Of a stretch of DNA of 64,000 bases, positions 21,164 through 64,000 are shown one piece after another. Numbering within the stretch: position 1 is the stretch's first letter; each line of letters starts with the position of its first letter. The notes beneath the pieces were generated by a model. The model saw nothing but the letters and a program-made list of their open reading frames with translations, made no database searches and had not been told where the DNA came from. This DNA is from Lunularia cruciata (Eukaryota > Streptophyta > Marchantiopsida > Lunulariales > Lunulariaceae): contig OX419755.1 of NCBI GenBank assembly GCA_948567375.1, positions 59,655,945 to 59,719,944 of the forward strand, given 5' to 3'. Made by a program: the position numbers and the translations under genes.

Positions 21164-21164
21164 G

Positions 21165-21178
21165 ACCTCACTCCTTTT
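21165..21178 (-). other. Polypurine tract of gypsy-1
   Basis: The minus strand reads AAAAGGAGTGAGGT directly before the 3' LTR, the expected plus-strand primer site. Confidence 0.75.
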
Positions 21179-24494: not shown

Positions 24495-24649
24495 AACAAT
24501 CAGTTGAGAGGTTGCCTTTTGGGCTCTTTGCGCATTATTCTTCTTCCTTCCCTCGCTTCTCTGCTTCCTTATTGAGCCAATAAGGCCGCGAGGTACATTT
24601 ACTGGCGATCTTTGTTTTCCAAAGTGGTTTCCACCTCCTCCTCTTCAAT

Positions 24650-25705: not shown

Positions 25706-26277
25706 TTGCTAATGTCTTCTTCAATATAGAGTCAATATAATCACTCTGGAAGGCGCACGAACTATCGGAACTACCATTGGGACCTCAGAAGCTATCACTC
25801 GTTGATAATACTACTCACCAAAATTCCTAACCACAAAATCTCTAAACATCACTTTCGGCCTCACTACATAACGGATTTCTACTTGAGTGTTGAAAGGGAG
25901 AGGATTTGGGACATTCATATCCATTTTATCATAATAGAATGTAGATCATCAAATCCCACTCTCTGTCATATATCACCACAAGTAGAATCACCGGGTTTGG
26001 TGAGTTCATCACTCTGTCCATGAATTCCGCACCAAAGTGATAAACTAGCGATACCCTCATCTGCTCACGCTAGATGTACATAACCTTGATGTGGAATGGG
26101 TTTGAGAACGGAAAGCTAGGTGCGGGAAATTGTCCCCCCGGCGCATCCATCCCATCCGCTCTCTAAAGTCCTTCCTAAGTCTAGCGATTACTCTATGTTC
26201 TCCACCTCACATTACTCAATTTCAGTAGTTTGTGCTATTCCAAGAGGGGTGATCCACTCTCTTGGACTAGAACACTT

Positions 26278-32940: not shown

Positions 32941-35900
32941 TTATTATATGTATATATTATTCAATAAGTTTCTAGTGGATGATAACCTTTGTTTGTATAT
33001 TATGAGAGAATTAGTTAGGAAGAGTGATCAATGATGTGGAGACATGATGCAAATAGGTGCACACAAGATGACAAAAAAGATTTGAAGATACATCAATTCA
33101 ATCCTTACAAAGATAAAATCAGAGGTCAATAGCTATATGATGACAAGAAAGATGGGAAGAATGACAAGGTTTAATCAAGCTTGGGTTAATGGTCTATGTA
33201 CTATTGTATGTATTTTTGGAACATCCAAAAATATCACCTTATAAACATGATTGTTTTAGTGTGGATTACATCAACCATATAGCCTAAAATTAATTACAAT
33301 AAATTTTAAAACATAGAAAATAAATTTATATTCAGGTAGAGTAATCTATCAAGCATTTTTTAACAAAATCATCTCCAAGTCTCTCTATAATTCCAAAAGC
33401 AAAAGGAAAAATAAAAGCACCTTGTTTTGGAGATCTACCTTCAAATTTGGATATCTTAGTTTACTTCCAATATGATCAATGATAGAATGATTTAGTGTTG
33501 TCTTTGATAAATTGATAAGTTTGTGAAAAGAAGAGCTATAAAATTATACTTCAATCATCAAGGTGATATTGTGTTAAACATTACCTTAGGGTGATATTGT
33601 GCTAAATATTGCCAAGATTATAAAGACTTTATATTTTTATGATCAATTATCAATTATTGAATTGATACTTTTTTCTTGCAGAATTTAAATTCAAATAGTT
33701 ATGAAAATATTTTACATGAATTATCTCTATGTAGAACAAAGATTTAGCTATAATAATAAATTAGAAAAACATAGAAAATAAATTTTATTCCATATCAACC
33801 AATTTATAAGAACTTCCCTCTAATAATTGTGTTGACTTTCTAAATTGAGATCAACTAGCTGCTCTAGTCAAATTTGGAATAGCATATCCACTAGGTTCAA
33901 AAAATTTATGATGAGGGAGACTAGTTAAGGATTAAATATCCTTATAAAACTAAAAACATTGCTCTAAATAGACTACCTAAATTTACCTGCAAATTTGGTT
34001 ATATAAATAATAATAAATGAAACTATTATTTAATATTTTATTTTATTTGATTTTATTGAGCCCTTGATAATATGTATTATAAAACTATTCTAATACTGCT
34101 ACTTCAAAATATAAATTAATATTTAAATATAATAATTTATTTAATATTAATAAACTATATTTCAATATTTTATTGAGCCATTGGTATAATTCCTATAATT
34201 AAATAAATAAAAATAAAGGAATTATATAATATTGAGCCATTGGTATAATTCCTTAAATTATCTATACTTCCACTTGCAGTAATGGCCTTTCTTTTGTAAA
34301 ATGATTACAATCAGTTTCTTTTTTACCTAATATAGTAGACTGCAAAAAGTACTCTACATAGTTTTTCAGGGTATTAATATAATTCATAAGATAAAACTTT
34401 TTAAAGTAAAATTTATAGTATAAATTTATTTTTAAGATATTTAAAATTTTCACAAACTGAATATTTAATAAAATAGAATTAATTAAAATGAACAAGGCAA
34501 TTATTTTGATCATACGTCCACTATCAAAACCCTTATGTAACAAATATCTGATTCAAGTCTAATGATAAAATTTTGATTGTGTGTTTTTCATTGGAAGAGA
34601 ATATTAAAGAAATTTATTTTCATCTACACTTTGTTTCAAGCAATGTGAGCCTTTAGTTATGCATCTATTTCTTTGTAAGTCTCTCTTATGTCTATTATCA
34701 GAATCTAGTTTACAATGAAAATGAAATATAACAATATAGTAAGCATTGATATTTAGTTGATAATCAATGGGTTTCATTTGCACTTCAAATGAATCTTGAA
34801 TCTTGATTTTTATGTATTTTTATAATAATATAGTCAAAATGGATAGTTAGTTGATAATCACTGGGTTTCATTGGCACTTCAAATGAACATTGATTTTGAT
34901 GTATTTTTATATATTTATAATATAAAATTGATATAGTTGTGCAATAACAATAAACTTAATATTGAGGTGTTTCCCAACAACTGAAGAAATATCCAAGGGT
35001 CTTATAACTATAAGAAGATTGAGTTGAGGTCTTATAACTATAATAAGATTGAGGCTTTGATTCTACTTGTAGTTATCTTTCAAATGTATACTAACTGTCA
35101 AGTGAAAAGAGTAAGATATCTTGAAGTGGGTTAAGTAGAAAATAAATCTTAACTTACATGTTACATATAATATGTGCAATTTCAATTCAAGAAGTGTTGT
35201 CTTTTCAACAACGAGTTGTAAGCAAGTGTATTAATATAATATGTAATTATCTATATATATTATATTATTGTATTTAGGATATATAAAACTTTAAATTTTA
35301 TATGATATATAATTAACTTGAAAGACTCTAGTCTACTTCCAAAAGATAGTTGAGTTTATAAATATATACAACAGAAAATGCTCACAAGTGGTTAGAGTAG
35401 AGATTATGAAAGTTTATATTGTGCTTGTTTGGTTTATATATTTATGGTTGGTTATTTTAGGTCTTATTCTAATGCAATAAAGAGAGGCAATTAATCATAT
35501 AGGATGTTAGTAATTATTGAAATAGATGTCCCAATGCTTATTAGGAATTATTTAAAAAATATAATTTATCATTATTTCTTCATAATTTGAACAATATTAT
35601 CTAGAATCAATCCAAGAGTTCGTATTCTATTAGAATTAATAAGATCTGATAGGTTTATATTTTCTTTATTTCAAATAACATCAAATTTTACCTTTCTACA
35701 TCTAATGATATTACATTGTTGAAACTAATTAAAGACTCCATATTTCTTTCAAATTATAAGCCATGGATATGCTTATCTATTGTTTATTTATACACCAAGA
35801 AAATCACCCAAGTGTCTAAGTAGTTACTTAATAAAAAAAAGGAATTATTGTACATAGAATAGCTCTTCATGTTTAAGTTGCATATGTCCTTGAATCTATT

Positions 35901-37059
35901 TATACAATGATACAAAAATAATCATTGAAGTTTTTAGCAAGTTTTCTATTTTCTACTCTGAAATAATAATATCATTCTTTATGTTTAATTTGCAGAAATT
36001 TTTAAATCTATATGTATTAGAAACTTAAAGAGAAACAAATAGTTATAAAGAGTATAATAAAGGATTAATAAATAAATAAATAAATAGTTAATAAATAGTG
36101 TTATTTATATAAAAATAAAGAATTGTTTGTCAATATCCATAGTGAGCAGTAAGTATAAGTTAATATTCTCAACTTTATTTATGTTAATAGTTTGATTTGA
36201 TCACATCACTTACAAATACAATTGTGAAAGATAGTTGTCTACAAACTTAGAGTCAATAGCAGTAATCTTTGTTGGGTTTAGAGTTTGATAGATAATGTTC
36301 TGCTCGATCTAAAGCATCATATAAGAATATTAAAAGATGAAAGAATACAAATATATTTTCATGTAGTTTTTTCAACTATTAAAAATATTTTTCAACTTAT
36401 ATTTTTAGAAGAATTTAGATAATTTGCACTAAATTGAGGAAAATCATGTTTATAATTATTTTCTATTTAAATTGACTTAACTTTTTATTATAATTGTGTA
36501 CTAGCTATTTGATTTTCCAACTAATTTGCAACTCTTGGGTTTATTGATTATTGAATTCAAGATGGCTATTTCAATAATATTTAGAAAATTAATCATTTAC
36601 AAATTTTAGGAAAGGAAAAGTGTATGAGTATTAGAGTTTCAATAGCCTGAAATTCAAAAAACTATTCATTAGCATCTCTTTACTTATTAGTAACCTTTAA
36701 GAAAATTATATGAAGGATTTATTAGTTGTACAGTATATATTTGACAATTCAAATATTTTGAGGGTTCTGATAACTTTATTGATCACATAGATCAATATTT
36801 GATGATTATGAAAAATAAATAAGTATTCATAAGATCTCTAAATGAAAACTTTGTTCATTATATAATTTACCATTTATGCTCATCTTTAATCACAAATAAG
36901 TTATGTAAGATTGAGATTTATATTTTCTTGTTTATATGGTTACTTTCATCTTACTCATTTTGTTATAATTTCCTCAATATACATTGTTTTGGTATTATTA
37001 TTTTTATCTTACATGTACTTCTTATAATTTTTTCATTCATAGATTAGAGAGGTTGTCAT
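32941..37059. other. AT-rich gene-free block
   Basis: Mostly A and T (roughly three quarters or more by eye), with no convincing coding frame on either strand and no recognisable element ends. It contains short direct duplications. 34753-34826 is repeated at 34846-34913 ('agttgataatca.tgggtttc'). 34999-35024 is repeated at 35029-35053 ('gtcttataactata'). 'attgagccattggtataatt' occurs twice near 34.17-34.25 kb. I see no organellar gene in it. Confidence 0.6.
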
Positions 37060-37590
37060 GTAAATATACATTGTTGTTAACATCGTACATTATAAAAACA
37101 AAACTCACATAAGAGGCCAAACATAAACTCCAAAGTGCTAAAATAATAAGAGGATCATAAATAAGATCTCAACACTCAATAATCTATGCCAACAAGCTTT
37201 GATTACATTGTCAAGCCAAAACCATGCTAGTTGAGAGAATCCAAGTTTCACTTGTTGGCCTTTATCTACCATACTCAAGAGCTTGATGGCTGAATATAAA
37301 AGAAGTGAGCTCTCTAGAGTTGTACTTTGATTTATACCACTTGGAGTGGCATGGAAGTCTACCCCCAAGAACACATCCAATGGTGTAAATGGTAGTTATA
37401 ATGGTGCAAATGATGACTCTAATTGTGCAATCAAGAACCTTAACATATTAGATGATTACCACCTAGTAACCCATGACTAGCTATTGATAAAATTATGGTT
37501 TCCAAGATAATCATTCCAAAATCCTAGAAAACTTGCTTTGACACTACAAATATCTTGATAGCTACAAATGTCTTGATAGTTATCATGCAA
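37060..37590 (-). repeat. LTR-like sequence of the PHD-gypsy family
   Basis: It matches, with divergence, 38513-39018 and parts of 57.2-58.4 kb. Shared landmarks are 'acactatagaagcaaaactc', 'aactccaaagtgccaa', 'agaagtgagctctctagagt' and 'cttgatagttatcatgca'. The copies end before coding-derived sequence, as expected for LTRs. Confidence 0.55.
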
Positions 37591-38452
37591 ATATACATTC
37601 TACACACATACATCATTGTCAACATCATACACTATAGAAGCAAAACTCTTATAAGAAGTCATACATAAACTCCAGAGTGCCATTATTGCATGCCTAGCTA
37701 GCAATTAGACCCCTCTAACTCCAAATAGTTATCTACTTTAAGTATGTGATATGCAATATGATGGGCAAAGATCATGAGATCATGAGACCAAGTGTTATCG
37801 AGTCCCATCATTAGTTGTTTATCTACAATATATGCCACAAAAAGAGTGGACTAGTTTCAATGTCAAGTACATCAAGGACATAACCACTATCCTTGAGGAA
37901 CCACCATGAGAGGACAAGTCAATTATGCCATATGTCATCCTCTCAAACAACTATCACACACCAACATAGTACTTGCTCCACTAGAGCAACCACATAACAT
38001 ACGCCGCAAGCATGTATACACAAGTGCCAAGCTTGGGTTCATTGTACCATCAATATTTTGAAGGATCATGTGCACTTTGCTAGTGCACATGATCATTACT
38101 ATCACATCCTTCAAGCACAAGGACTCTAAAAGGTAAAACCTCACACACTCTCAAGATAGTGTAGTTTATAATCACATCAAGAATCATTGGTGGAGTCTAT
38201 TGTATATATACATACTTGGATGAAATCAATAGATCAAGGGTCTATAACTTCCTCAAATAGTGATATAACTGAAGGTATTATTCTGTTGAGAAATAGCTAA
38301 GTTCTCAAAAGCTATTAATATCACTCCATGAAAGATCTTTGCATGTTGAAAACATGCATTCACTCATACATTTGGATCATCCAAGTCCAAAACTATATCA
38401 GAATCATGACAAATGATTATAGGTAAATGTGGATCTTTTCTATATAATGAGT

Positions 38453-38512
<60 letters not shown>
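37591..38512 (-). mobile_element. Gypsy fragment: integrase tail and PHD-finger-like end
   Basis: The minus strand has DSDIVLDLDDPNV near 38.38 kb, the same integrase C-terminal motif as at 59.4 kb. It then has a Cys-rich segment with CSSGASTMLVCDSCLRG near 37.94-38.0 kb, the same as the PHD-like segment of the element at 58-64 kb. It is a short 3'-end fragment, broken. Confidence 0.65.

Positions 38513-38513
<1 letters not shown>
38455..38513. repeat. (TA)n microsatellite, about 29 units
   Basis: An uninterrupted TA run, at the junction between gypsy integrase-derived sequence and the LTR-like block that starts at 38513. Confidence 0.95.
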
Positions 38514-38515
<2 letters not shown>

Positions 38516-39018
38516 CTACATAACATACACTATAGAAGCACAACTCATACAAAATTCATGTATAAACTCTAAAGTGCCAAAATAATCAATTTAGTTCACA
38601 CCAACTTGGATAAAAAATCAATCACTCAACTCAATAATCTACCAACAATAGGTATTGATTACACTATCAAGGCACATGCACTCTAGCTAAGAGACTCCAG
38701 GAAATACTTGCCAGCCTTTGTCCATTATAGCCAAGAATTCAAAGGCTCAACATCAAGAAGTGAGCTCTCTAAAACTATACTTCAAAGGTATACCCCTTGG
38801 ACTTGACCTAACACTCCAACCTTAATGGTATTATTGATGATCCATTTGATAATGCAAATGATTGGATTGATGGTATCTCAAACAACACAATCAATAGCAC
38901 TAACACTAAATTTGGCTACCATTAAGTAGTCTTTGAGAAACTATTGATATCACTATGACTACCAAGACTAATACTCCAAAATCCAAGCAAACTAACTTTG
39001 GTGTTGCAAATGTTGTGA
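38514..39018 (-). repeat. LTR-like sequence of the PHD-gypsy family
   Basis: It parallels 37060-37590 and 57.2-57.65 kb along its length ('cactctagctaagagactcc', 'aaggctcaacatcaagaagt', 'gtataccccttggacttgac'). Confidence 0.55.
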
Positions 39019-45700: not shown

Positions 45701-46410
45701 CCATTACTCCCGAGAAACTGAAATTCCAGTTCCAAGCTAAAAAGGTGATACAAAGTCTCACCAAGACTTTGATCCTTGCTACTACATCTACCCTTCGAAT
45801 TGCAAAACCTCTCAAAGCCAGCACGTTGGCCACCTTCTTCGCCATGATTTATTCTCTTGTTCTACGCTGTTGGAAGATCAGCCCCTCTCCTGGACGAGAC
45901 ACTCTAACTCCCTCAGGGTTTCGGAAAATTTCACTCTCGATGGGCTTCCGGACACGCATTCCTGCAGGATGACTACTCAAAGGAATTGGAAATTTACTCA
46001 GCGAATTCAATTTCCCCATGCACATTTGCAATTTTATATTGCCCCGAATTGCAGTCATTCTTTAGTCAATTTTGTATGTGAGTTTCTCTCTTCTGCGTGC
46101 TCTCCCGGTCACTGTCAAGACATGCTTCTTCTGCCCCCGTCGTTTCTTGACATGTACTTTCTTGCCACGTATTGAGGTTGTTAAATGGTCTTCATTATTT
46201 TTGCGTTTTCCAACCTGAAGATGATGATCTTCGGCTTGCTTCTGGTGTACTCCTCTTCCGAGTACCTCCATCATCGGATCCGATGTCAGCTTCTTCGGCT
46301 TTCTTCCAAAGTTACTTTCACCTCTTCTTTGTTTGCAATTCGTCTTTTCCATGCTTACTTTGTCTCTTAAACACTACTAACCATAAAAAACAAAAAATGT
46401 GGGTACCACA
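42709..46410 (-). mobile_element. Unknown 3.7 kb insertion element with a long broken frame
   Basis: On the plus strand it starts TGTGACAACCCGG and ends GGGTACCACA, flanked by ATTTT at 42704-42708 and 46411-46415 (AAAAT on the minus strand). Removing it restores the gypsy-C integrase around TKIMVFVDKFSK. These are LTR-retrotransposon-type borders, yet I see no long terminal repeat, RT, protease or integrase. The minus strand carries one long broken frame from about 46352 to 43508. It has a basic N-terminus, a middle block (FFHQMFAGVLVNWAKCFYHR, FGLNLLSEDER), an acidic Ser/Glu part and a long coiled-coil C-terminal part. A few breaks separate the pieces. Family unknown. Confidence 0.7.
43508..46352 (-). 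pseudogene. Broken long frame of the unknown element (gag-like?)
   Basis: Pieces in order on the minus strand: Lys/Arg-rich start (46352-46062); segment with EIFRNPEGVRVSRPG (46.0-45.9 kb); hydrophobic segment with FLAWNWNFSFSG (45.7 kb); block with FHQMFAGVLVNWAKCFYHRT, MGSPPHYFAPFAAHFYFGLN and EDERHRM (45.4-45.18 kb); basic then acidic linker (45.1-44.6 kb); coiled-coil heptads (about 44.5-43.75 kb) such as EEEARLRELVKSAEQQKVQY. The overall plan of a globular block, charged linker and coiled coil could be a gag or a structural protein. I know no match. Confidence 0.55.
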
Positions 46411-46925
46411 ATTTTTGTATGATCTTGCTTTGTCTTGGACAAGGATGTGATTAGTTCTAAGTTCATGTGTTCCCATTGAGCTGATGAAATAGAGAATGGT
46501 TGAAGGAGTCCACTTGGTTTTTGGTTGCTAGCCTTTTTTTGTTGGCAAATCTCACAAGATCTGACAAACTCTTGACATCTCATTCCATGTTGGGCCACCA
46601 CCATTGGCATTGTAGGGTATCCAAGGTCTTATCCACACCCATGTGACTAGCGCGTGGCAAGTGATGGGCTTCTTGAAGGCACACAAGTTGGAGATCACCC
46701 TGGTTGAGATATAGATCCAATTCTCAAAAAATAAAAGGCCTTCCTTGAAGGAGAAGGTGTTGTACTCCTTGATGCATGCTAGAAGCAAACCTTATACCAT
46801 CTAAAAGAAGGGATCTTGTTGTAAAGTTATCTTAAACTTGATTTGGACCTTTGAGTTGACTGACACCGTAGTAATTGCTGTCATGATGAGAGGAAGAGAC
46901 TTCAAATCAGGTTGTTGGGATTGGG
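46411..46925 (-). mobile_element. gypsy-C, RNase H end and integrase N-terminal part, broken
   Basis: The minus strand reads QPDLKSLPLIMTA (near 46.9 kb, the usual DALSRRPDL position), then a zinc-binding integrase segment, then CEICQQKKASNQKPSGLLQP (near 46.5 kb). It stops at about 46925, where it abuts the truncated gypsy-2 copy on the other strand. Confidence 0.75.
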
Positions 46926-49900
46926 CATTGGAGATGATATGGAGTATTATCAACGAGTGATAGCTTCTGAGGTCCCAATGGTAGTTCCAATAGTTTGTAC
47001 GCCTTCTAGAGTGATCATATTGACTCTGTATTGAAGTAGACATTAGCAATTTAGTGTTGCAAGAACCATGGATCCACAATTGCAAGGGATGTTGAATGAC
47101 TTTTGAGAGATTAAGATGACCATGGAAGCATTACAAAGTCAAGTGTAGATCTTCAAGAACAATCAAGCTATGCAAGAAGAAGAGCTGTCTCAAAACTCAG
47201 TATCTACAATTGAAGTACTTGGAGAGGCACATGTGCCTACAAACCCTATCAACAATGAAGCCACATTGCTACTCCGGATGAAGAAGACCTGCAAAATTGA
47301 GCCTTACAAGGGGCAACATATGATGGGAGTAGTGGAAAATTGGATCTCAAGAATGAATCAATATTTTTGATTGTTCTCAATAGAGATCACGGAGCATGCT
47401 GTAGGTGTGTTTGCATGTGGGTACTTGACCAATAAAGCCCTCACATGGTATGATGCTTGGGAATGATCATGTTGGCCGAGAGAAGGGAGGTCATGTGGAC
47501 GGCAATGCAAGAAGGATTGTTGAAGAATTTCCAATTGGTGGATTTTGTGCAGATGGCTCAAACCCGACTATAGGGATTGAGATAAAAGAACAACATACAA
47601 GAGTATATGGAGACATTTCTAGATCTACAAGTCATGATAACCAACATGAGTCTAACAGATTCTCTCGACAATTTCAAACAAGGGTTAAAGGAGCGGATTT
47701 GCCAAGAAGTCATGGTGCAAAATCCTCACATAGTATTTGAAGCCATTACTTGTGTGTAGAGAATAGTAGGAGCATTAGGTGGGGGTGAAGGAGTAGTTCC
47801 ACCTCAACATTATTGGGCAGAAATGCCACCCATGGGTGGACTAGTACCGATGGAATTGGGCAACCTTCAATTTCAAGATCAAGGAGCACAACCGCATCAA
47901 GAGGGAGAAGAACAAAGAGATGGAGTTCCACGAGGAGAAGGTACTCAAGGAGAAGAACTCCATTGCTATAATTGTGGCCATATTGGGCACATATCTACCA
48001 ACTGTTGCACTTTTTTCCCTAAAGGCCCTCGGCCTTCATACGGGCAATCTTTGAACAATATGGAGAGGTACATTGAAGAGGAAGAGGTGGAAATAACTTT
48101 GAAAAACAAAGATCACCAACAAATGTACCTCGCACCCTTGCTGGCTCAATAAGGAAGCAAAGAAGCAAGGGAAGGAAGAAGACAAATGTGCAAAGATCTT
48201 GAAAGGCAACCTCACAATTGATTGTCATGAATGGAGTCCTAGAAGGCAATCTAGTGAGAGTATTAATTGATCAAGGAGCAACAGAGAATTTCTTATCTTG
48301 CTCTATTGCAATAAGATTAGAAATGGATCTAGAGAGAGATGTGAGTGAAGAAGTAGAGTTGCCTAATAGGCAAACAAAGAGGATTGAATCATTACCTAGA
48401 CGGGTAATACTCTTTGTAGGAGAATATTAGGAAGCAATTGAATGGCGAGTGATACAATTAGCTAGTTATGATGCACTCTTAGGCATACCATGGATGAAGC
48501 GTTACAACCCTATGGTAGATTGGAGGAAGAAAGTAGTGAGAACCCACCAATGGTCAATCATTGGTGTTAAAGAAAAATCGCACAGGTAGGAATTGCCTCT
48601 ATATGCCATAGGAGCGGGAACTATCCATAAGACCAATAGATGTTTCATGGGTCTAATAAGAGAAGTCCAGAGTGCACAACTCCATGGACAAATTCTTGAG
48701 AAATTGAAGGATGTGGTAGATGAATTTCAAGATGTCTTTCCCGATGATCTACCCTTAGGATTACCACCAGAAAGGAGAGTAGATCATAAAATCGAGACAC
48801 TCCCGAGGAAGACACCTCCTTGTTAGGCCCCATATTGCCTATCACCTAATGAGTTGGAGGAGTGTAAGACTCAAATTAAGGAGATGCTGCAAAAGAGGTT
48901 CATCCAACCTAGCGTATCACCATATGGGGCTCCTGTCTTGTTTATGAAGAAGAAAGATGGTATAATGCGCATGTGCATTGACTATCAAGGTCTCAATCAA
49001 CAAACAGTGAAGAATAAATACCCCTTACATTGCATGGATGACCTATTTGATCAACTCTATGGAGCAAGATACTTTACCAAATTGGACTTGCGGAGTGGTT
49101 ACAATCAAATCCAAATTGCAGAGGAAGATGTGTACAAAACTACCTTTTGAACCAGGTATGGCCACTTCGAGTATCTTGTGATAACTTTTGGCCTCACCAA
49201 TGCACTTGCCACTTTCATGAGTCTAATGGATGACATATTTTGTCCATACTTGAATAAGTCTATCATTATCTTCTTGGATGATATCTTAGTATATAGTAGC
49301 ATGATGATAGAACACAAACAACTTCTATGAGAGGTCCTCTAGATTCTAAGACAGAATTGATTGTACACCAAAATCTCAAAGTGTGAGTTTGGCAAGTTTG
49401 AAGTAGACTACTTGAGGCATAGAGTAAGTGTTAAGGGCATTCAAGTATTGATCAATAAAATAGAGGTCATTCAAAAATGGAGTGCCCTAGAAGATCAGAC
49501 TCAACTCAAGAGCTTCTTGGGGTTGACGAGATTCTATCGTAGATTTGTCAAGGACTTTTCCAAGGTTGCACAGCCTTTAACGGCACTACTTGGAAAGGGG
49601 AAGAAGTGGACGTGGGGAACCACACAAGAGTTGGCCTTTCAAAAATTGAATGCCGCCTTACTACATGCACCAATCTTGAAGTAGTATGACCCAAAACGTC
49701 CAATCAAGTTGGCTATAGATGCATCAAGCATAGTAATAGGAGCAGTCCTACAACAAGAGTGGCATGATTGATGGCATCCAATTGCATATTTCTCTCAAAA
49801 GTTGTTACCAGCAGAGCGCAACTACCACACCACAAAATGAGAAGAGCTGGCCATTGTTTTGGCAACCAAGCATTGGAAGCATTATTTGGGCAAGAAGGCA

Positions 49901-50832
49901 TTTGTAGTAGAGATAGGCCACAAACCTCTAGTCTAGCTCGAGACCCAGAAGGATCTATCTCATTGCCAGATTTGGTGGGCAGAGTGGTGACAACGCTTCA
50001 GCATAACAATCACCTATGTAGAAGGTAAGAAGCAACTTGCAGATGCATTCACCCGCATGCCAATGGAAAACAACTTGGTGGTAGAGGTTAAGGTTAACCT
50101 TGAATTCTGGCCAAAGATTCTGGCTGTTACAAAAACTGATCCACAGATTGTAGAGGCACAATCATCCAAAGGCGTCACAAACACCCCAAGACTCACCTTT
50201 TGTAATGGAAATTATGGATCCCAAATGTCCTAGAATTACGTACCACCATTCTAGCAGAATGTCATGATTTGGCCATTGTAGGTCATGTCGGAGTGGACAA
50301 GACCTTGGATGCAATCCAACACCATTACTATTGGCCCAAGATGAGCAACAACGTGATGGAATACATGCACAACTACCTACTTTGTCAACAGAACAAAGCT
50401 TCTAATCAAGAACCTGTAGGGCTCCTTCAACCTCTCCCCACTCCTACCCAATGTTGAGAACAAGTGAGTATGGATCTTGTTTGTGAATTACCCAAGACCA
50501 CCTCAGTGTTTGATTCTATCGTGGTCTTTGTGGACCGGCTCAACAAAATGATTCATGTACGCCCTACCACCAAGGAGGTGACCACCCCACAACTAGCTCA
50601 ATTATACTTAGATGTAGTCTTCTCTTACCATGGCTTGTCTAGAGGACTTATCACAGATAGAGGCACTCAATTCACCAGTTTGTTTTGGCAAACACTCTTT
50701 GGTTTCTTCAAAACCAAGTTGGCCATGTCCACAACTTACCACCCACAAATAGATGGCCAAACAAAGCGGGCTAATTGCACTATTGAAGACATGTTACACG
50801 GCTTCACCTTAGAAGAGCAAGAGAGGTGGGAC

Positions 50833-51524
50833 TATAACACCCATTTGTGCATGTGTGTGGTATTGTGATATTTAGCTTGGTATTACAAGTACTTAAGAGA
50901 TATTATTTATATAGAGATAAAGGATGGTTCTATATTAGTCATGGTTAGCTAAAGGTAGTCATAGCTAAGATAGAAGGGACCTTACTTTAGAGGAAGTAGA
51001 GAAGATGAGCACCACTATTTTGGATTTTAGTGTGTTGACTTGGTATTATTCCTAGGTGTTTGGCTTTGAGGAAAGAGTTGAGAACTCTTGGGCCCGCAAG
51101 CCTTTTTGTTTTGGATTCTTTTATAGTCCAAAGATAGCCCATGTGAAGGAATCCTTGACTTAGTGGTTGGGTCAAGATAAGACCACATGCTTAGGGAAAT
51201 ATGCCCATGTGAATGGATATTCCTTTCTACCTTTTGACTCTACTTGGATTTTAGTCTAGTAACTTGAGTTACTATGGTAATTAATAACTTTGGTACGAAA
51301 TTATTTCACAAGTATATAAACAAGGGGTGAGGAGGTACTCATCATCCTTTCATTTGCAACTATTTCTCTTTCATTGAGTTCTCTAGTGAGCAATGTCTTG
51401 AGTCTTGGAGTGTTAGCCTTGGAGGAGTATGATGGAGTTTGGGTTCCTTGCCTTCTTAGTCCATGGTGCACTACCATAATAGCCATTAGAGGTTCATCCT
51501 GAGTGAGAGACAAGCCGGCTCACA
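50833..51524 (+). mobile_element. About 691 bp LTR-like element inserted in the gypsy-2 integrase
   Basis: Removing it restores the flanking integrase sequence (…EEQERWD / LLPLVELAYNN region). Ends read TATAACACCC and GGCTCACA, with GGAC on both sides. It has a TATA-like 'gtatataaacaa' near 51313 and no coding frame. It looks like a solo LTR or short non-autonomous element. An inverted copy lies at 55549-56238. Confidence 0.75.
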
Positions 51525-52234
51525 GGACACCCTACTCCCGCTAGTGGAATTGGCTTACAACAATTTAGTGAATGCATCTACCCATGTCACTTTGTTCTTC
51601 CTCATGTATGCTGATCATCCTTTCACACCATCTAGCTTGATGAAGATCCGTCTAGTGGCTACCAAGGTTGATGCAGTCAACTCATTTGTTTCTAGAATTT
51701 AACAAGGTGTGGAGAGCGCCAAGCAAAGATTACAAATTGCACAAAATTGATAGAAGCAATATGCTGATGCACACTGTAGGCACATGGAGTTCAATGTTGG
51801 GGATCAAGTGTGGCTATCAACAACTAACCTTACATTATTTAGACCTCATAAGCTCAGACCTTGTTTTATTGGGCCTTTCTTGATTCTTTGTTGCGTTGGC
51901 ACTATGGCCTATTACCTTGAGCTACCATCACAAATGAAGATCCATCTAGTGTTCCATGTTTCTCTACTATGCAGATATGTTTCCCGATCAGGCCATTCCA
52001 CACAAGACATTTGATCTTGTCCGACACTCATTGATGGCGTAGAAGAATATGAAGTAGAGCATATTCTCCAAAACTGCATACGTGGTACTTGTCATCCATG
52101 AGTGGAATATCTCATATAGTGGAAAGGTTACCCCCTCTATGAAGCAACTTGCGAGCCCGCTGCCAATTTGACCCATGCACCGGTGTTGATACAAGCATTT
52201 GAGCAACAATTGCACAACAAAGACGTTGCGTCTT

Positions 52235-52247
52235 AAAAGGAGGGAGG
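52235..52247 (+). other. Polypurine tract of gypsy-2
   Basis: AAAAGGAGGGAGG lies just before the 3' LTR, the same position as in gypsy-1. Confidence 0.75.
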
Positions 52248-52249
52248 TC

Positions 52250-52967
52250 TATAATACCAAGAGCTAGCCATATGATCTAGATGGAGAATTTGGTTTGGTA
52301 ACATCTAGAATGAGGTTTTACATGATGGTCAAAATAGATCAAATAGAAGTATCACCAAAGAGTACTTCTACTAATAGGGCAGAAATCGAAATGGACTTGA
52401 GAACCTTAGAACCAATAGCAAGACATATGATTTAAAGGTGAGAATTGGTTTGGTAACATCTAGAAGAATGTTACACATGATGGACCAATAGATTTGAAAG
52501 AGGTGTCACCAAAAGGGGATTTCTACTAATAGAGTAGGAACCAAAATATGCCTAAAATCTTTTAAGGCAATTTTGGAGGCCTAAACGGATGAATTAGGCC
52601 TCAAAAATGTAAACACTCCCCCCATAAATGAAGGAAAGGCTGGCCTTCTCTCCCCTTGGTTTGTCTCATTGAGCACTTTCTAATGGTACCTTATGTGATT
52701 CTGAGACTCCTATAGGAAGATTCCCTAAAAGATTCCCTTTGGTTAAAGCTTGTTTGACCAGCTAGATAGGACCTAGACCGACATGTCAACCATCCAAGTT
52801 AGTAATCCAAGGGTAGAGCTTGCTGACATGTCACTTATCTGTGTGCCTAATCCTATGATGGAGATCCACTTGGTCTATATAATAAAGAGAAGGTGCTCCT
52901 TTGGAGCATCAAATGTTTGAGTGTGAAGTTTGTGTTTTCTCTCTACTCCTATCCTCGGAGCATTACA
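52250..52967 (+). repeat. 3' LTR of gypsy-2
   Basis: It runs from 'tataataccaagagctagcc' to 'cctcggagcattaca', collinear with the gypsy-1 LTRs in the opposite orientation. Confidence 0.88.
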
Positions 52968-53395
52968 CTACCCTTAGAAACTATACTTGAATTGATGGAG
53001 ACATAATTTGGAGGTGAATACTATCTCCATAGCTCAAACTCCTCCAAGTGAGTTATCTTGAACTCATGGTAGTCATTCATTAGTGGACCTTCTAAGTGCT
53101 GAATAACCCCTTCCATGCAATGAAAGGTGTGAGCAAAGTTGGGTTCCGTATCTATTGTAGATCACACCAACTATCAAAATCCTAGATGAAGTCATCCAAG
53201 TCAATGGTACCCACTATATGAAAGTAACACCTTGGGCCTTTGGAGGCCCCATAAATCTTGTCCATGTCCCACAATAACTGTGCAAACACACCAAGTGCAC
53301 TCTCAACTAAATCAACTCTTGTGTCAAACTCCAACTCAGAGTCAATCTCCTCCTTCACTTGGACCTAAGATACAAGCTGATACCAAATGCCACTC
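52968..53395 (-). mobile_element. Gypsy leader and gag-like remnant
   Basis: The minus strand has TTGGTATCAGCTTG near 53380-53393, a diverged tRNA-Met primer-site-like sequence. A frame follows with VKEEIDSELEFDTRVDLVES and CYFHIVGTIDLDDFI, in the style of gypsy gag proteins. It is cut off at the end of gypsy-2. Assignment is tentative. Confidence 0.4.
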
Positions 53396-55548
53396 TGAGT
53401 AAACTCATTATGTAATGTAGGGCTATCTCCTTTGGAATCACTAAAGAACTCCATTGTGACAAAATAACCACAAACTGCAAACCGCAAACCACAATTGCAA
53501 GTACCTCACCAAGTGCGAACACCACCAAGTACCAACACCAACCGAGCACCACCCACTAGTGTAGCCCTAACTATGACAACTACACTTGAGGAAAATGTGA
53601 CCTGTAACCTGCCATCACAACATGCACTCTCATGATGTTGTACTTTTCCTTTCTCTCTCTAGGACCACACAAGGTGCCTAGCTATGGAGACTATAGATCA
53701 GAGGCTAGAGGTAAACACATAACTACTTGACTAAATAAATGTGTTACCCAACTGCCGGAACCCTCCTTTCTCGTAACTAATATTGTTGCTATTGAGAAGA
53801 GTAGTGACAAATAACCTAACCTTTCATCACAACACTCACTCTTGGTCTGCTGGTCATCACTTCAGCATTACCAAGGAAAAATACACAACACTTTTAGAAG
53901 GAAACAAACTAAGCGCAATGCTCGCACACCAATCCAAACCAAGTGGGCATACAAACATACATGCAAGTACAAAGAGGACCCAATCACAAGAATATGATAA
54001 CAACTCTCTATTATTTTTGTTGGAAAAGAGTTTCAAAGCCTTCTTGCTCTATCATCAAGCTCATTTCAACTTGTACTCTAAGTCTTGCCTAATCCAGACT
54101 TCATAGTTCAATAAATTTCTACTCCAAGTTGGGAATTCCTATGTCTTCTTGATGGGGAAAACTTTGTGCAACCCATATGAATATAAACTTTTTTGTGTAG
54201 CTTGGATTCAAGTGTTCTAGAATTCAATGGAAAGCTTATGAAACAATCTTTCCAATGACATAAAATAGGCCTCAATCAAATTGCTACAGCTCTCCTAAAA
54301 GCCTCTCAAATTTAGCCAGGTTTTGTACAACTTTCACCCTAATTTTGAAACCCTTATTTTAGGATTTACTCCTGGTTCTAGGCAACTACTCCCTAAATTT
54401 TTGATTCAGAAGTACACCTGATCCTTTAAAACACTCTAGAAACTTAGAACACTCAATCATAGTCACAAGATAGGAGAATTGACATTCAATCAAGATGGAA
54501 GATAAAAACTGCTCTATTGAGCTTATGATAGTATATGCAGTAGAATTTTTTGCATCAGATCTCACTCTCCATAGACCTAGAGCCACCTTTATTTTTCATA
54601 ATAGCTGGTTGTGTCCTTGTTTAAACTCCAATAAATTTTGTAGCCTAATCCAATCCCAATCCCTAGACGTGGATCAATTCTTGAGTTGGGCTAATTTGTG
54701 AGCTCTACACACCCATGTATACTTGATCCAAGACCCTGAATTCTCTATTTCAAGAATTCACATGAAACCTTTGCACAAAGGTACAAACCCTAACCAACAA
54801 TAGGACTGGAATTTTTCATAAGGTATCTCAAACCACAACTTGGGGAGTGACCAAAACTCCAAACCCGATTATCAGCTTTTCTCCAACACCTTACATCTCA
54901 AAAGCTTCAACTTCAATCAATCAGATCTAATTTGAGATTGATCCAAAATTACAATTCCTTGTAGTTATAACTATAAGAACTTTATCTTCTCTCCAACCCT
55001 AATGATAGATCATGAAAATATATCAACAAGCTCTACCAATTGCCTACTTTGTACTCTTTGGTATGAGTTCTACTCCCTTTGACTCAATTGATGATATCCC
55101 TCTCAAAATCTGCTCAAATTGTCTGATTTTAGTCTTATGATTGTAGCTTGTCAGCCTCTCTCTCCAACTATGGTCTTCTCTTTTCAAATCCCCTCCCCAA
55201 ACTCCACCAATGGTTGAAAACTCCAGACTCCTTCTCTTGGAACCCAATCTCTTGGAAATTTATCCTTTAGTTTCTTCACTTTTTGACAAATGGACCCACA
55301 ACTCTACCTTGAAGCTTATAAGAAAAAGTTCAAGCATTACCCAACTATAGAAGCACATAGATTGTCAAGTTCTAGACATGTTCATAAGTAAACATCGGAA
55401 GGATAATTGGATCCGGGTTTCCCATCACTAACTCTATGAATACCACCCCAAAATGTGCCACCATCCAATTTCGTAAGCTATCACAATGTAAAATATGAAG
55501 TTTGATGAGAAAAGGATTTGGGAGTGGCAGATCAGGAACATGGTGCAC
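53396..55548. other. Non-coding stretch, probably old LTR or leader sequence
   Basis: No convincing frame or element end. Around 53.95 kb 'gtacaaagaggacccaatca' resembles 'aaagaatagagggggtccaa' at 56.25 kb, so parts on both sides of the 690 bp insertion may belong to one older repeat. Confidence 0.35.
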
Positions 55549-57179: not shown

Positions 57180-58380
57180 CTGACCTCACTTCTTTGATGT
57201 AATAAATTTGTTTACACAACTTGACTCACACTCAATCAGATCAATACTTGATTTGTCACTCTATAATTTGCCAACAACTGGGCACTAATCATAATCAAGC
57301 CACATCCACTCTAGCTAAGATAATCTAGGTGACACTCATCGGCCTCTGTCCACCATAGCTAGGAACTCAAAGGCTCAACATCAAAGAAGTGAGCTCTCTA
57401 GAGTTGCACTTTGAAAGTATACCCCTTAGACTTGAGCTAGGTTTCAAACCCTAATGGTCTTGCTGACAGCACACCCAACGGTATGAATGGTGTAGAGTGA
57501 TGGTGGGCCCTACCATGAAGTCAGTACCTTGAACACAAAATCTGACTGTCGGAAAGTAGTCTATGAGTAATTGCTAAAATACCTCTAACCACTATCATTG
57601 CAACTCTAGTGTCCGAGCAATCTAGATGAGATTCTACAAATGGCATGACACTTTTGAATGAGAGAAACTCTTAATGCCTCACATGAGCTTAGGCTTTGGT
57701 ATTTATAAGGAATAAACAAGGCTCTTGAGAAGCTTCCTAAAATTTGCTTGCTTGGAAAGCAAGTCAAGTTAATTGGGAAGCTTCTCAAGAAACTTCTTTC
57801 TAGAAGCCGCTTTCTTGGCATGCAAGCGTAGCTAGCCAAGAAACTTCCCTAAGAAGCCACCTACTTGGCATGCAAGCTAAGCTAAACAAGAAGTTTCCCA
57901 AGAAGCTATCATGCATATATACATCACTATACAACATACATCATTGTCAAAATCACACACTATAGAAACACAACTCACACATAAGTCTTACATGGAGTCT
58001 AAAGTACCACAATAATTAGTTGTTTACACAACTCAAATCACACTCAATCAGATCAGTACTTGATCTAATCCTAATGGTCTCGCTGATTGCACACTTGACG
58101 GTCCAAACAATGCAAGGGATGGTGGGCCTCACTATGTAGTTAGTACTCCAAACAAAAAATCTTTCTGTCAACATGTAATCTATGAGTAACTACCAAATAC
58201 TCTTGACTAACAACACTACTACTCTAGAGTCTGAGCAATCTAGATGCGTGCTATAAATAGCGTGATAGTTGTCATGCATATATACATCACTACACAACAT
58301 ACATTGTTGTCAACATCATATATTAGAGAATCAGAACTCACACATAAGTCATACATGGACTCTAAAGTACCACAATTTTC
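57180..58380 (-). repeat. LTR-like sequences of the PHD-gypsy family, rearranged
   Basis: At least two partial LTR copies lie in tandem (about 57180-57650 and 57905-58380; shared 'gatggtgggccc', 'tagtctatgagtaa', 'gagcaatctagatg'). A hairpin-rich segment at 57651-57904 sits between them and resembles 41.33-41.53 kb. A TATA-like GCTATAAATAGC is near 58250. It borders the 3' end of the element below. Confidence 0.5.
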
Positions 58381-58568
58381 TCCCTAGTTGGCGGTTAGGT
58401 CCTTCTAACTTTAGATAGACATCTACTCCAAGTATATGGTATATCTTATGGTGGGCAAAAGATCAAGAGGCCGGGTGCTATGGAGCCCCATTATTATTCA
58501 CTTGCTTGCAATCTATACCATATAAAGAATGAACTTGCTATAGGTCAAGTACATCTAGGATATAACCA

Positions 58569-58769
58569 CTATCTCTGAGGAACCACCATGAGGGGAGGAG
58601 TCATACATGCCATATGCCATGCTCTCAAATAGCTATCACACATTAATATAGTAGCAGCTCCACTAGAAGAGCCACATAACATACATCTCAAGCCTACCCG
58701 TACAAGTGCTAAGCTTGGGTCCATAGAACCATCAATGTTTGGGAGGTGGCATGGATAACAATTGCACAC
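58569..58769 (-). pseudogene. PHD-finger-like domain at the end of the gypsy element
   Basis: The minus strand encodes a Cys-rich run with RCMLCGSSSGAATILMCDS followed by RAWHMACMTPPL. This parallels the C-x2-C … C-D-x-C … W-H-x2-C pattern of PHD fingers, which read histone tails. It sits downstream of the integrase, where chromoviruses carry a chromodomain. A second copy of the same segment is at 37.94-38.08 kb. Confidence 0.65.
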
Positions 58770-61700
58770 ATGATCCTTCTAAACAACACCATCACGTCCT
58801 TCCAACACAAGGACTTAAGATGGCTAAACCTTATATACTCTCAAGATAGTGCGGCTGATGGAAAGGCCAATAGGACATAACCACTATCCCTGAGGAACCA
58901 CCATGAGGAGAAGAGTCATACATGCCATATGCCATCATCTCAAACAACTATCACACACTAACATAGTAGTAGCTCCACCAAAAGAACCGCAAAGCATACA
59001 CCTCAAGCATGCTCATACAAGTGCCAACTTGGGTCCAGAGTACTATCAATGTTTAGGAGGTGGTATTGCATACATGATCCTTCCAAACAACACCATCACG
59101 TCCTTCCAACACAAGGACTCTAGATGTCAAAACCTCGTTCACTTTCAAGATAATGTGGCTGGTGGAAACATCAAGTGTCGTAAGTGTTGTCTACTATAGA
59201 TATACACAATCACATGGATGAAAATGATGGATTGAGGGTCTATAACCTCCTCCTCAAATGGTAGCATAGTGCAAGGTATTCCTATGTTGAGCAATTGCCA
59301 AGTTCTCAAAGGCCATCAACATCACTCTCCAAAAGATCTTTGCCCATTGAGAATATGCACTTATCCATACATTTGGATCATCCAAGTCCAAAACTATAGT
59401 AACATCAAGACAAATGGCTATAGGTAAATCTGGATCTTGTCCATAAAGTAGAAAGTAAGGAGAGAAGGATGCTAAGGAGGCTTGCCAGCTGAATAAATAG
59501 CCCATGGCCAACCAAGGTAACTGGAGATCCCAATCTCCCAAGTGGCCTCTCTACAAACCATACTTCCGCAATCCTCTCTTCACTATCTAAACCTCTCTAT
59601 TTGCTAAGCCATCTGCCTTAGGGTGATCTCAAGAGGTAGTATGATGATCAATCAAAGCCTTTTCACACAAGACCTGAAACTACCCCAAGAACTCAATACT
59701 ATGATCAGTCAAAACCTCAACTAGTGCACCAAAATGACAAGAAACCGATCTAGGAACAAGTAAGTTGTTACTTCATTAGACTTGTCAAGAAGTGCCACCA
59801 ACTCAATCCACTTGGAGAAGTACTCTACCATCACTAAAATGTACTGATGTTGTCTCACAATCAATGGTAAAGGTTTAGCAAAGTCCAAATTCTAGCGGTA
59901 ATCCAATCCCATCATAGATAATGAATGCAACTATGTCATGGGAGCATTAAATGATGCTCTAACTTGGTCACAAACCACACATCTTGCAAAAATTGTTGTA
60001 CATTGGTCTGCATACCACGCCACCAATAATGACTTTGGAGTAAGTTGTATGTATGCTTTACTCCAAAATGTCCTAGCTTCTCATAAGCATGATGGACCAA
60101 CTATGGTCTCCAAGATGGAAGTGGTAATACTTGCACTCTACCATCCTCCCATACATGAAGAAGATGTCTGCCCTCCAATCCAAACCACCTAAACCACCTA
60201 GCTTGTTGAAAAACACAATCTCTCTCCTTGGCCCCAATTGTGTCTCCTACAACACTAGTGCAAAGATAGTCCATCACTAAGACATTATCATGAATGTCTC
60301 ATTGAACTGTATCATTATGTCCCCTATCTGGATCTATGACCTCAATAACTCCTCTTGTATGCATTGAGAGAGATACCACCAAAGCCTTAGAAATTATACA
60401 AAGAAAGGTAGATACATGCCAACTTGGCACCATCTCCTCATCTCTCACCATGCCAACGTGCTTTGTTTGACCCTACATGCTAGGACATGGGTTTCTACTC
60501 AACCCATCTACATCATGGTTCACCACTCCAAGTCTATGAATAGGCCTTGGCAATGGCACTGAGTACTCTAACATAACGTCAATAGAAGTTGGCAAATCCA
60601 AGGAATGCTTGCACTTTGCTCACATCCATAAGTTAAGGAATACGTGCAATAGCCTCCACCTTGGTCTATTGAACATTGAGTCCTCTAAGGTAGATAGTGT
60701 GACCCAAATACTCAACCTCCTCATGGAAGAAACTACACTTCCAATAACTATCTCAAACTTCTAAAACACTTCTCAAACACCTCCAATAACTATCTCCCAT
60801 GCTCCTCCACAATAGTGCTATAAACCAAAATATCATCAATATAGCTCCGAGCAAAATCCAATCTAGCTATGATCCTATCCATTCCTCTAGAACTCAACAA
60901 GAGCATTCTTTAACCCCAAATTGTAAGAATCTCCACTAATATAACACATTCTTGCCAATTAATAGCCCAAAATGCTATCTTGGACTTATCTTCCTCCTTG
61001 ATTGACAACTAATGATATCTTACTCAAAGATCCAAAGTACTGAAGACCTTTGCATGCCTAATTGCATCAAAGATCTCCTTTAGTGTAGGCATGGCATACA
61101 ATCAGCCCTAGTCTATTGATTGATAGGATGGTAATCTCCACACATCTGCCTATTTGTGTAGTTGCCATGCATATCCTTCTCGGTTGGCATCATTATAGCT
61201 GATGGATACTCTCCATGTGACATCTCTACCAAACCAGCCTAGAAAAGGTCACTACTCTGGCTCTAAATCAATGCTTGCTCCATGTCACTATATTTGTAGG
61301 GACATAAAGAAATTGGTGTATTGCTAGTAAGTTTGATCCTAATACCAGGTTCTTTTAGAGCACCCAAATCCTTCATACTAAGGTAAAAAAACTCATGTAG
61401 CTCTTCAAGAACCTCCAAACTTTCCATCTTTCCTCTCTTATAAGCTTGGGTTCCAAGTATCCTCTGTAACTGTCATAGGAGTGGAAGACATACTGATTAG
61501 CTACTACACTAGACCCTTGGGAGCAGTAGTGTCTTGCTCCCAACCACTAGAGGTCCCAACCTCAATGTGAAAACTCCCTCTGATCTGGTTGCAAGCTCCA
61601 CACGTCCTCTAGCAACATCCCAAGTAGACCAAGGATGTAATCCAAGTAGCCCACACTCACCAAGATAGACTCCAAGTAGACTACTGTCCCTAGTAGCCAT

Positions 61701-62216
61701 TGGTTGTGTCCAAAGAATACCATGCCCACTTGGTCCATCAATCCCAACATGTGCCTAAATTATCTCAATAGGCACAAAGTGTCCGAGTGGTGATGCCTAT
61801 CAAGTGCATCCTATGTTGCTTTGCTATACCAAGGCTCACAATTCAGGTCAAATAGTTTAGGTCTATAGCTTGATCTAACACCTGATGCATGGATGCCTTT
61901 GACATTGCTAGAACAACAGTAATAATGGTGCAATCACCTCTTGCCTACTCTCTCTCATCAACATTGGGCTCCACCAACTATGATAACTGTGAGCTCCAAA
62001 CCAGTCCAAAGCCTCCCTCTCAAAAAGCATGGGATCCTAAGAAACTCATAAGTGTGGCAAAAGTAGCTCTAGATTGTCCAACTAGGTTCACCACTGCCAT
62101 AGATGACCTATCAACCACAATTACTATTTGAAACTGACTCCCAACATCAAAGATGTTATCAACAATGATGTGGTCTAGTTGCTAAAATCATATCATGAGT
62201 GCGTTATAGAACCACT

Positions 62217-62943
62217 CTAGGTAAGAGGTTCATCCACAAAAGACAAAGACAATGAGTATGTGATCCCACTCTGGCTACATCTAACAACACAATAAGTCCC
62301 ATCCAAGAATGGTCTTGATGCATACTCACCATCCCCAAGGTGCAAGAACCCATCAAAGGGATGTTCTCCAAAAGGTAAGCTGGAGAAATGTACTAATGAA
62401 CATGGAGATGTTGTAGAATCCGCAACTTCTCCCAAAACACACCAAAGTAGAGATCTTGAAGACTCAAACCTTGACCAACATGTGTATGTCCTTGACATGG
62501 CCATCCAAAAATCACCAAATGAATAGGCTTATGTCCCTCTAGATCATGTGCCCCTACTAAGGAAATATCTGTTGATAGGGCCTTCTGGTAACCTGTGACT
62601 ATTGACATTTGTAATAACTCAAGATATTGATACGCTAAGTGTGCCACATGATGGAGAGAGACTTGTCCAACAGTCTCATATCTGTCTACATACAAGTACT
62701 CTATACACATATACCCCCCTATAGTACCCCAATTAGTCCAATGCTAATCCCACCAAACAACTCCAATAGACATACTCTCTCTATTGGATATTGCCAAAAA
62801 ATGAGTGTGGTAACCAAATGTGTCAAGGTAATCAACTCTGGAGGTTCATCCTCACACTTGTTGCCTAGTGGTACAAAGCTCCACTCCAAGCCTATTGCAC
62901 CAACTAATTTGCATGTTGCTACAATATCTCCTCTGAAATCCAC
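62217..62943 (-). pseudogene. Cytosine-C5 DNA methyltransferase-like domain in a gypsy element
   Basis: The minus strand has VCLLELFGGISIGLIGVL near 62.72-62.77 kb, matching methyltransferase motif I (D/E-L-F-x-G-x-G). It then has YLYVDRYETVGQV, like motif II, and VIFGWPCQGHTHVGQGL near 62.46-62.51 kb, which contains the motif IV Pro-Cys-Gln catalytic triplet. YASRPFLDGTY (near 62.31 kb) may be the later target-recognition side. Capture of cytosine methyltransferases by retrotransposons has been described in some algae and dinoflagellates. Here the domain lies between protease and RT. It is a broken relic. Confidence 0.7.
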
Positions 62944-64000
62944 AAAGGAATATCCAAGGTGGATGAAACAATCTCACTCATACTCCAAATCCGAGTGATC
63001 TCCTCTGGTATTGGAGTATCTTTTGCATGGGCATTCCCCTCCAATAAATCACTAGGTCAAGTAATAGAACCATTGAAAGCTAAAATTGAAGCCACCATGG
63101 TTCCAAAGAATAGTGAGCCAATACTTCCACTACTAAAGTGTACTAGTAGATGACATACTTGTCCCTCACCAGACTGCCAACCTAGTCTATAGGAGGTTGT
63201 CTCCTCCCAATAGTCAATATTAAAACCCATGGGATATAACACTGCTCCCCTAACTAACACATCATATGACTCAACCACGGTCACAACGGCTTGAACTCTC
63301 ACCATAGAGCTATTAGTTGGATGACCAAGCTAAATCTAGACAACAAGCTCTCCACATGTGATGTATTGTGTAGAACCACTCTCTAGAGATGTTTGGATTT
63401 GAAATGGACACCTCTCCATATTGGTCTTTCATAACTCCAGATTGACAATTGTAGCCTTCCCCAACATAATGAGCTGCACACTAGAATCAAGTAAGACCCT
63501 TTGTAGTGTATAGACCTTCCTTGAAGGTCACACTAACCAAAAAGTCCCCCTTTTGTTATCCAACATGACAACTTTAGGTGTAAACCATGCTTGCTCAAAG
63601 GCCAATCTAGTTGGTAACTCCTCCAATCTAGCCATTGTTGTGTGCTATAAACCATTGATTGCTGAGTGGATCACATGCTCCTCAACCAAGTAAACTCCAC
63701 TATCAACCACCTTTGATCTAGTAGTAGGAACCACATCATCCATATTGTCATAAAGCATGGCAACCAACCAAAACACTAGGGTTGGATCAACTCCCATTGT
63801 ACACATGTCATTGGCTTAGAATAATAGAAAGTGCATAATCAGCTAAGCCGCCCCCAACATCATGCTAGATTCAATTTTTATAGTAGCAGGTGGTTGACTA
63901 GTGGGTAATCCATCATGCACCCCATCACCACCTACCACACTTGCACTAGGATGTCTAGGAGCCATAGATGTTGTCTGTAGTGCTTTAGAGAGTGTAAAAG

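Follow-up and report, generated by a model that had tools for sequence, protein, structure and literature searches.

The closest described system to the one reported here is KnitGypsy-Dnmt3 of Klebsormidium nitens, a Gypsy element with DIRS-like repeats that carries a DNMT3 (de Mendoza et al. 2018, PMC5890265). The same paper describes DNA methyltransferases (MTases) in DIRS and LINE elements of dinoflagellates and, for the DIRS case, proposes methylation of the cDNA. According to a 2019 review, transposons of green algae and charophytes encode DNA methylases, whereas no such transposons are present in land plants, such as tracheophytes (PMC6338049), and a 2025 survey of DNMTs mentions, with reference to the 2018 work, DNMT3 carried by retrotransposons of streptophytes (PMC12344493). 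The published assembly of Lunularia cruciata measures 580 Mb and is described as inflated by Ty3/Gypsy bursts; the word methyltransferase does not occur in the main text of that paper (PMC9985172). A Gypsy element with a DNMT3-type MTase is thus already known from Klebsormidium (PMC5890265), and in the open-licence literature we found no printed report of an MTase-bearing Gypsy element in bryophytes. New here are the bryophyte hosts, the position of the MTase before a probably leaky stop codon, and target-site evidence for a DDE integrase in an element with split repeats. The land plants are thereby added to the hosts of transposon-borne DNA methyltransferases, with a species whose genome has been enlarged by bursts of Gypsy elements.

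The Lunularia family resembles KnitGypsy-Dnmt3 in its Gypsy domains, in having an intronless DNMT3-type MTase within the coding region and in its DIRS-like repeats; the KnitGypsy-Dnmt3 MTase is described as being under purifying selection (PMC5890265). The two differ in that KnitGypsy-Dnmt3 has a charophyte host and carries its MTase in the Pol ORF, a comparison made from the published description only, and the passages on KnitGypsy-Dnmt3 in that paper make no mention of a stop before the reverse transcriptase (RT), a PHD finger or target-site duplications (PMC5890265). SymbioDIRS-Dnmt3 and SymbioLINE-Dnmt are likewise retrotransposons with an acquired cytosine MTase, but they belong to dinoflagellates and have DIRS (tyrosine recombinase) and LINE backbones (PMC5890265). 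Gypsy-DNMT-PHD elements from chlorophytes (Haematococcus, Monoraphidium, Chlamydomonas eustigma) and from environmental sequences share with the Lunularia family the RT, RNase H, a related MTase, the DDE integrase and the PHD finger; however, their MTase lies after the RT and before the integrase and falls in a separate clade. REM1 of Chlamydomonas is a further atypical relative of Gypsy elements; it has a PHD finger, and its repeats are unusual.

We analysed a 64,000-nucleotide stretch of the L. cruciata genome (the window) for which a first-pass annotation had proposed an MTase-like domain, with motif I followed by motif IV on the minus strand, between the protease-like and RT parts of a Gypsy-type element. 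Both motifs were found in that order, and the domain does lie between a protease-like motif and an RT that begins at 61497 (Table 1). The domain is real, but the extent given for it, 62217-62943, was too small. When compared by tblastn with L032, an open copy in the same genome, the window gave three pieces (226, 183 and 47 bits) with 66-71% identity and a joint E of 4e-118, which together cover residues 1-343 of the L032 MTase, nearly the whole domain. The highest score obtained with 200 shuffles (2-base blocks) of 61000-64000 was 24.3 bits. The remnant is interrupted by 7 in-frame stops, changes frame twice and has lost the motif VIII arginines, so the MTase of the window copy is inactive. 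Motifs I, IV and VI and a C-terminal EPNxDERE block are still legible.

Table 1. Features of the decayed element, in window positions
Feature	Position	Strand	Basis or remark
DNMT3-type MTase remnant	61771..62796	-	tblastn of L032 ORF1 residues 995-1340
Motif I (LELFGG)	62743..62766	-	read in sequence
Motif IV (GWPCQGH)	62486..62506	-	catalytic cysteine codon retained
LLENI motif	62374-62358	-	read in sequence
Protease-like motif LDSS (LDSGA in open copies)	63471..63491	-	upstream of MTase
Decayed ORF1, 3' part (protease-MTase)	61554..64000	-	Gag part past window edge (L039)
ORF1/ORF2 boundary TAG TAG CTA	61492..61509	-	most other copies TAG CAG CCA
Decayed ORF2 (RT, RNase H, integrase, PHD finger)	58548..61497	-	PHD end present twice
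Repeat B1, 107 bp	58270..58376	-	
Repeat A2, internal deletion	58015..58268	-	
Repeat B2 (element 3' end), then target-site duplication GCTT	57907..58013	-	

Pfam profiles were also run on 7 window pieces by themselves. Only one of the 7 matched the DNA_methylase profile PF00145 (E=0.041, 13.7 bits against a cut-off of 22), and on that piece a better score went to PF22084, an unrelated family (E=0.0023), likewise under its own cut-off. Since the window copy scores below the cut-off, its homology was established through the open copies of the same genome. The profile search proposed in the first-pass annotation therefore failed for the window copy but gave at least 123 matches in the same assembly. 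The low scores of the window pieces would fit motifs that had arisen by chance or had come with an unrelated host-gene insertion limited to this copy. Against this stand the joint E of the match to the open copy, a domain order that recurs in other copies as well as in proteins of Marchantia, and an MTase in Sphagnum and algal relatives; these matches refute such an origin. A contaminant origin was rejected because the window sits inside an 85-Mb contig.

Repeat A1 of the window copy begins outside the window, at G000:C1:59723280, and is preceded by GCTT. The window copy is thus one complete but decayed element of 9430 bp with GCTT at both ends. Within it the PHD end of ORF2 is duplicated (59033-58872 and 58871-58548).

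In the window's own assembly (G000; 566 Mb, 74 contigs), contig C74 carries chloroplast genes, and its matK is 100% identical to that of L. cruciata, a liverwort, over 81% of the query, against about 74-80% for the next matches. The assembly was searched with PF00145. We found at least 123 matching loci (of 2161 first-look candidates 123 were scored, and every one of them matched), many with open frames of several hundred residues. Of 30 of these loci taken further, 25 carried the MTase of the element and 5 resembled host genes. Among the latter, L001 (C7:31989837) and L004 (C1:51668693) have host-like exons, and L004 is like L001. In the PDB L001 is nearest to DNMT3 (2e-15), and for this reason Lunularia may have retained a cellular DNMT3. 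L002 is DRM-like (4e-37) and L015 resembles it, while L003 resembles a chromomethylase in its motifs.

Eight long copies (L031-L038), all chosen by their match to the MTase profile, were analysed together with their flanks; one of them, L038, is the same genomic place as L011. In these copies we found the domain order of the window copy; the first-pass annotation had proposed to look for such relatives in this assembly. All eight share one plan, consisting of repeat A, ORF1, an in-frame TAG, ORF2 and then B-A-B. The element is approximately 9.6 kb long. Repeat A (about 450 bp) starts with TG, its 5' copy being matched only in part in L032, and is separated from ORF1 by a leader. ORF1 encodes up to 1428 aa with a Gag-like part, two zinc knuckles, an LDSGA protease motif and the MTase. 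ORF2 (1037 aa) encodes RT, RNase H, an integrase with zinc-binding and core DDE parts, and a PHD finger. On the 3' side, repeat B (107 bp) is followed by a dinucleotide that is nearly always GC, by A, and by a second B with a CA end. Extra stops or frame breaks are present in many copies of the family.

In the PDB the RT is nearest to Ty3 (Ty3 Gag-Pol 2.4e-93, Ty3 RT 5e-69) and the integrase to that of PFV (1.3e-17); the region after RNase H matches the Pfam-type domains rve (1e-12) and Integrase_H2C2 (3e-18), that is, a DDE integrase with its zinc-binding part. The family is therefore like Ty3/Gypsy elements in an RT-RNase H nearest to Ty3, a DDE integrase after the RT, and TG...CA ends with a short duplication. 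It lacks two identical complete LTRs at its ends, since all eight copies have A on the 5' side and B-A-B on the 3' side, and we describe it for this reason as a Gypsy relative with split repeats rather than a standard Gypsy element. The order A-coding-B-A-B corresponds to the split direct repeats of DIRS/PAT elements, but a DDE integrase stands in place of the tyrosine recombinase and 4-bp duplications are present, and membership in DIRS was rejected on these grounds. Our data show a multicopy, recently active family of Ty3/Gypsy type with a DNMT3-type MTase in its first ORF.

To classify the enzyme a profile was built from 9 chosen family MTases. Compared with the PDB, this profile matched DNMT3A at 3.5e-22, DRM at 3e-12, bacterial enzymes at about 1e-7 and DNMT2 at about 3e-6, and no DNMT1-type chain was among its 58 PDB sequences up to E=10. 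Each of the 9 chosen MTases matched PF00145 (E below 0.01), and none of them departs from W-P-C-Q, E-N or R-x-R. In L032 and the 9 chosen rows the motif order I-IV-VI-VIII-X is not rearranged and the catalytic Cys, Glu and Arg are present. Judged by profile and motifs, the enzyme is a DNMT3-type cytosine-C5 MTase with all main motifs. A DRM origin was rejected, because the motif order of DRM is rearranged and that of the element is not.

Some of the wider relatives deviate in their motifs. Among 32 wider rows, 19 have WPCQ as motif IV, 6 have WECQ, 3 have another form and 4 lack the motif; in the 8 bryophyte rows motif IV is kept in 6, E-N in all 8 and R-x-R in 6. The relatives with W-E-C-Q for W-P-C-Q (P0025, P0026, P0027, P0029, P0030 and P0031) have their other motifs intact and carry the MTase after the RT or before the integrase. 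In P0040 and P0043, two Gypsy proteins from environmental sequences, the RT is preceded by an MTase-like part in which the usual motifs are absent.

Relatives of the MTase were sought among 5.8 billion proteins, and the best 8000 candidates were scored. This gave at least 43 matches, 14 from Marchantia polymorpha, 1 from Sphagnum fallax and 28 without an organism name. A second search, with a Pol-type relative as query, gave 235 matches; the 120 that were listed include Haematococcus, Monoraphidium and Chlamydomonas eustigma. The Klebsormidium element was not found by name among the protein matches listed. Among 154 relatives listed, the MTase follows the RT in 115, 97 of which have the order RT-MTase-integrase-PHD; in 22 a protease precedes the MTase, and the RT is either lacking or follows; 15 are incomplete, and the remaining 2 are unusual, very divergent proteins. 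These shares are biased by the queries, the second search having begun from a Pol-type protein.

An MTase tree of a subsample (71 rows) divides by the position of the MTase, with 14 protease-MTase rows in one clade (support 99/97) and 54 Pol-type rows in another (96/88). The clade of 14 consists of bryophytes and some environmental protease-MTase proteins. Two divergent rows and DNMT3A fall outside both clades, and the root is unsure because DNMT3A forms a long branch. Similarly, in an RT tree with a long-branched outgroup, two bryophyte rows stand apart from 37 Pol-type rows. The division would fit a single capture of the MTase with a later change of position as well as two separate captures. 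The Sphagnum fallax protein P0022, a row that fills 28% of the columns, is placed beside Lunularia within the group of liverwort elements (98/73); this placement could reflect horizontal transfer or old paralogy. Two loci on viral contigs were rejected as relatives and read as unrelated MTase genes, since they match in the MTase only and not in RT or integrase.

We found the MTase to be conserved at least as strongly as Gag. Lunularia and Marchantia P0001 share 71% of residues in the MTase, 69% in Gag and 55% in linker plus protease, and between Lunularia and environmental P0013 the corresponding values are 53%, 27% and 38%. When ORF1 is compared with that of P0013 and P0016, two distant environmental relatives, no other part is as well conserved as the MTase. 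Within Lunularia the selection tests have little power, both those by pN/pS and those by variant counts. Over 8 open copies the pN/pS of the MTase was 0.48; one RT pair gave 0.31 and 6 integrase pairs 0.71. In the MTase, singleton variants were 36 nonsynonymous to 27 synonymous and variants shared by 3 or more copies 13 to 14; upstream of it the counts were 50 to 22 for singletons and 18 to 10 for shared variants. A stop interrupts the 391-aa MTase stretch in 21 of 29 loci (L011 and L038 being the same place).

Target-site duplications of 4 bp were found in 10 of 12 copies with visible edges. Among the long copies 7 of 8 have them, the exception being L035; the only other copy without a duplication has two left-flank bases visible, which mismatch the right flank. 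That copy is one of 6 more that we sampled at their edges. Of the others, 2 show both edges in full, each with a duplication, and 3 showed no edge pair; B-A-B was completely visible in 3 of the 6. The A2-B2 junction is exact in all eight long copies. A start in A and an end in B, with target duplications, indicates that the integrase inserts a molecule with those ends.

The divergence between A1 and A2 (K2P) is 0.007-0.031 in 6 of the 7 long copies in which it was measured (L032 is not measurable), and these six are young. It is 0.13 in the window copy (152 sites). In L035 it is 0.086, and as its repeats are of unequal age this copy looks recombinant.

The stop at the boundary of ORF1 and ORF2 is TAG at all 31 loci in which the boundary was located (30 different places), and it is followed by CARYYA in 28 of the 31. 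CARYYA is the leaky stop context of tobacco mosaic virus (TMV). Of the 8 long copies, 7 have ORF1 and ORF2 in a common frame, and in L034 the boundary was not located. Since most copies are close kin, the shared TAG is weaker evidence than its count, and it may reflect mere kinship. The context suggests that the stop is probably leaky, and an MTase placed before such a stop would be produced at the level of Gag.

The first-pass annotation had raised the idea that the element could hide or mark itself by methylation. Compared with a young copy, the window copy has lost C to T at 44% of CG, 36% of CHG and 10% of CHH sites, a pattern resembling the one left by methylation of CG and CHG sites by the host. 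As a control we used two Gypsy elements of another lineage in the window (about 20001-26000, minus strand, and 46001-53000, plus strand), whose RT proteins are 83% alike over 238 columns and in neither of which a match to the family MTase was found. In a two-way count, decay at CG/CHG/CHH was 0.40/0.31/0.07 for the window copy and 0.29/0.30/0.06 for the control pair. The same CG and CHG decay is thus seen in elements without the MTase, so that no footprint of self-methylation stands out; we dropped this footprint as evidence, and the idea found no backing here. The family element has not escaped host methylation.

How could an MTase serve such an element? In the model that we propose, the MTase would be produced in the same amounts as Gag and enter the particle together with it, whereas RT and integrase would be supplied by readthrough of the TAG. 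The enzyme would then methylate the element's own cDNA, or a circular form of it, before integration. A methylated cDNA could pass as host DNA, or could have its chromatin state set at once. The repeats, whose order is shown by the copies themselves, suggest a further step. Reverse transcription of an A-coding-B-A-B layout would give an ordinary element whose LTR is B plus A. The B-A junction (ACGACA-GC-TGTCACG) is palindromic, and if the integrase opened a two-LTR circle at this B|GC|A junction inside one LTR, the product would be exactly A-coding-B-A-B, with TG...CA ends and 4-bp duplications. Both the action on the element's own cDNA and the opening of a circle are our inference. The combination of an active family, an MTase made at Gag level before a leaky TAG, methylation of the element's own cDNA and circle opening is, in our judgement, reasonably likely. 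A fuller version is tentative and on balance doubtful: an old bryophyte Gypsy lineage, recently active, in which a DNMT3-type enzyme made in Gag amounts would methylate cDNA or circles inside the particle, and in which circles would integrate through a cut at the internal LTR junction. If this version is true, the family would represent a replication route between those of LTR retrotransposons and DIRS elements.

Other roles for the enzyme have to be weighed against action on the element's own cDNA. Its main target might instead be the host genome, in trans, where it could silence competitors or defence genes or relax the control that the host has over methylation. The many copies and an MTase domain with all main motifs are consistent with this, as is a genome estimated at more than twice that of Marchantia, largely through expansion of Ty3/Gypsy elements as a whole (PMC9985172). 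However, the enzyme is embedded in a Gag-protease polyprotein and the decay pattern is ordinary, being common to other Gypsy elements, and we consider a role in trans unlikely. We give no greater credence to the proposal that the MTase is a nucleic-acid-binding or structural part of the Gag precursor, retained after methylation was lost. Yeast assays of the Klebsormidium relative gave no activity, a result described by its authors as inconclusive (PMC5890265), W-E-C-Q is found in 6 of the 32 wider rows, and of the 8 bryophyte rows 2 are without motif IV and 2 without R-x-R. On the other hand, the bryophyte rows keep E-N in 8 of 8 and P-C-Q in 6 of 8, and the conservation of the MTase relative to the rest of ORF1 in P0013 and P0016 also argues against lost activity. 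Protection of the host cell from DNA viruses has been proposed for transposon methylases, as speculation, in a review that ties the loss of such enzymes in land plants to an absence of DNA viruses (PMC6338049); an enzyme present in a land plant fits poorly with this, and a protective role here is very improbable.

Since Lunularia is close to the model plant Marchantia, in which relatives of the element are present, the role of such enzymes for a transposon can be tested in a plant. The repeat layout and the clean 4-bp duplications also bear on how split-repeat elements can use an ordinary integrase.

Apart from the element in Table 1, the window holds further sequence of the same family. A second copy lies downstream, with repeat A and the start of ORF1 at 57217-57650 and 52973-53541 (minus strand), and pieces of more decayed copies (repeats A and B and the PHD end of ORF2) are found at 37173-38829 (minus strand). 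Finally, the G+C content of 34001-36000 is 0.229, very low compared with about 0.4 for the window.
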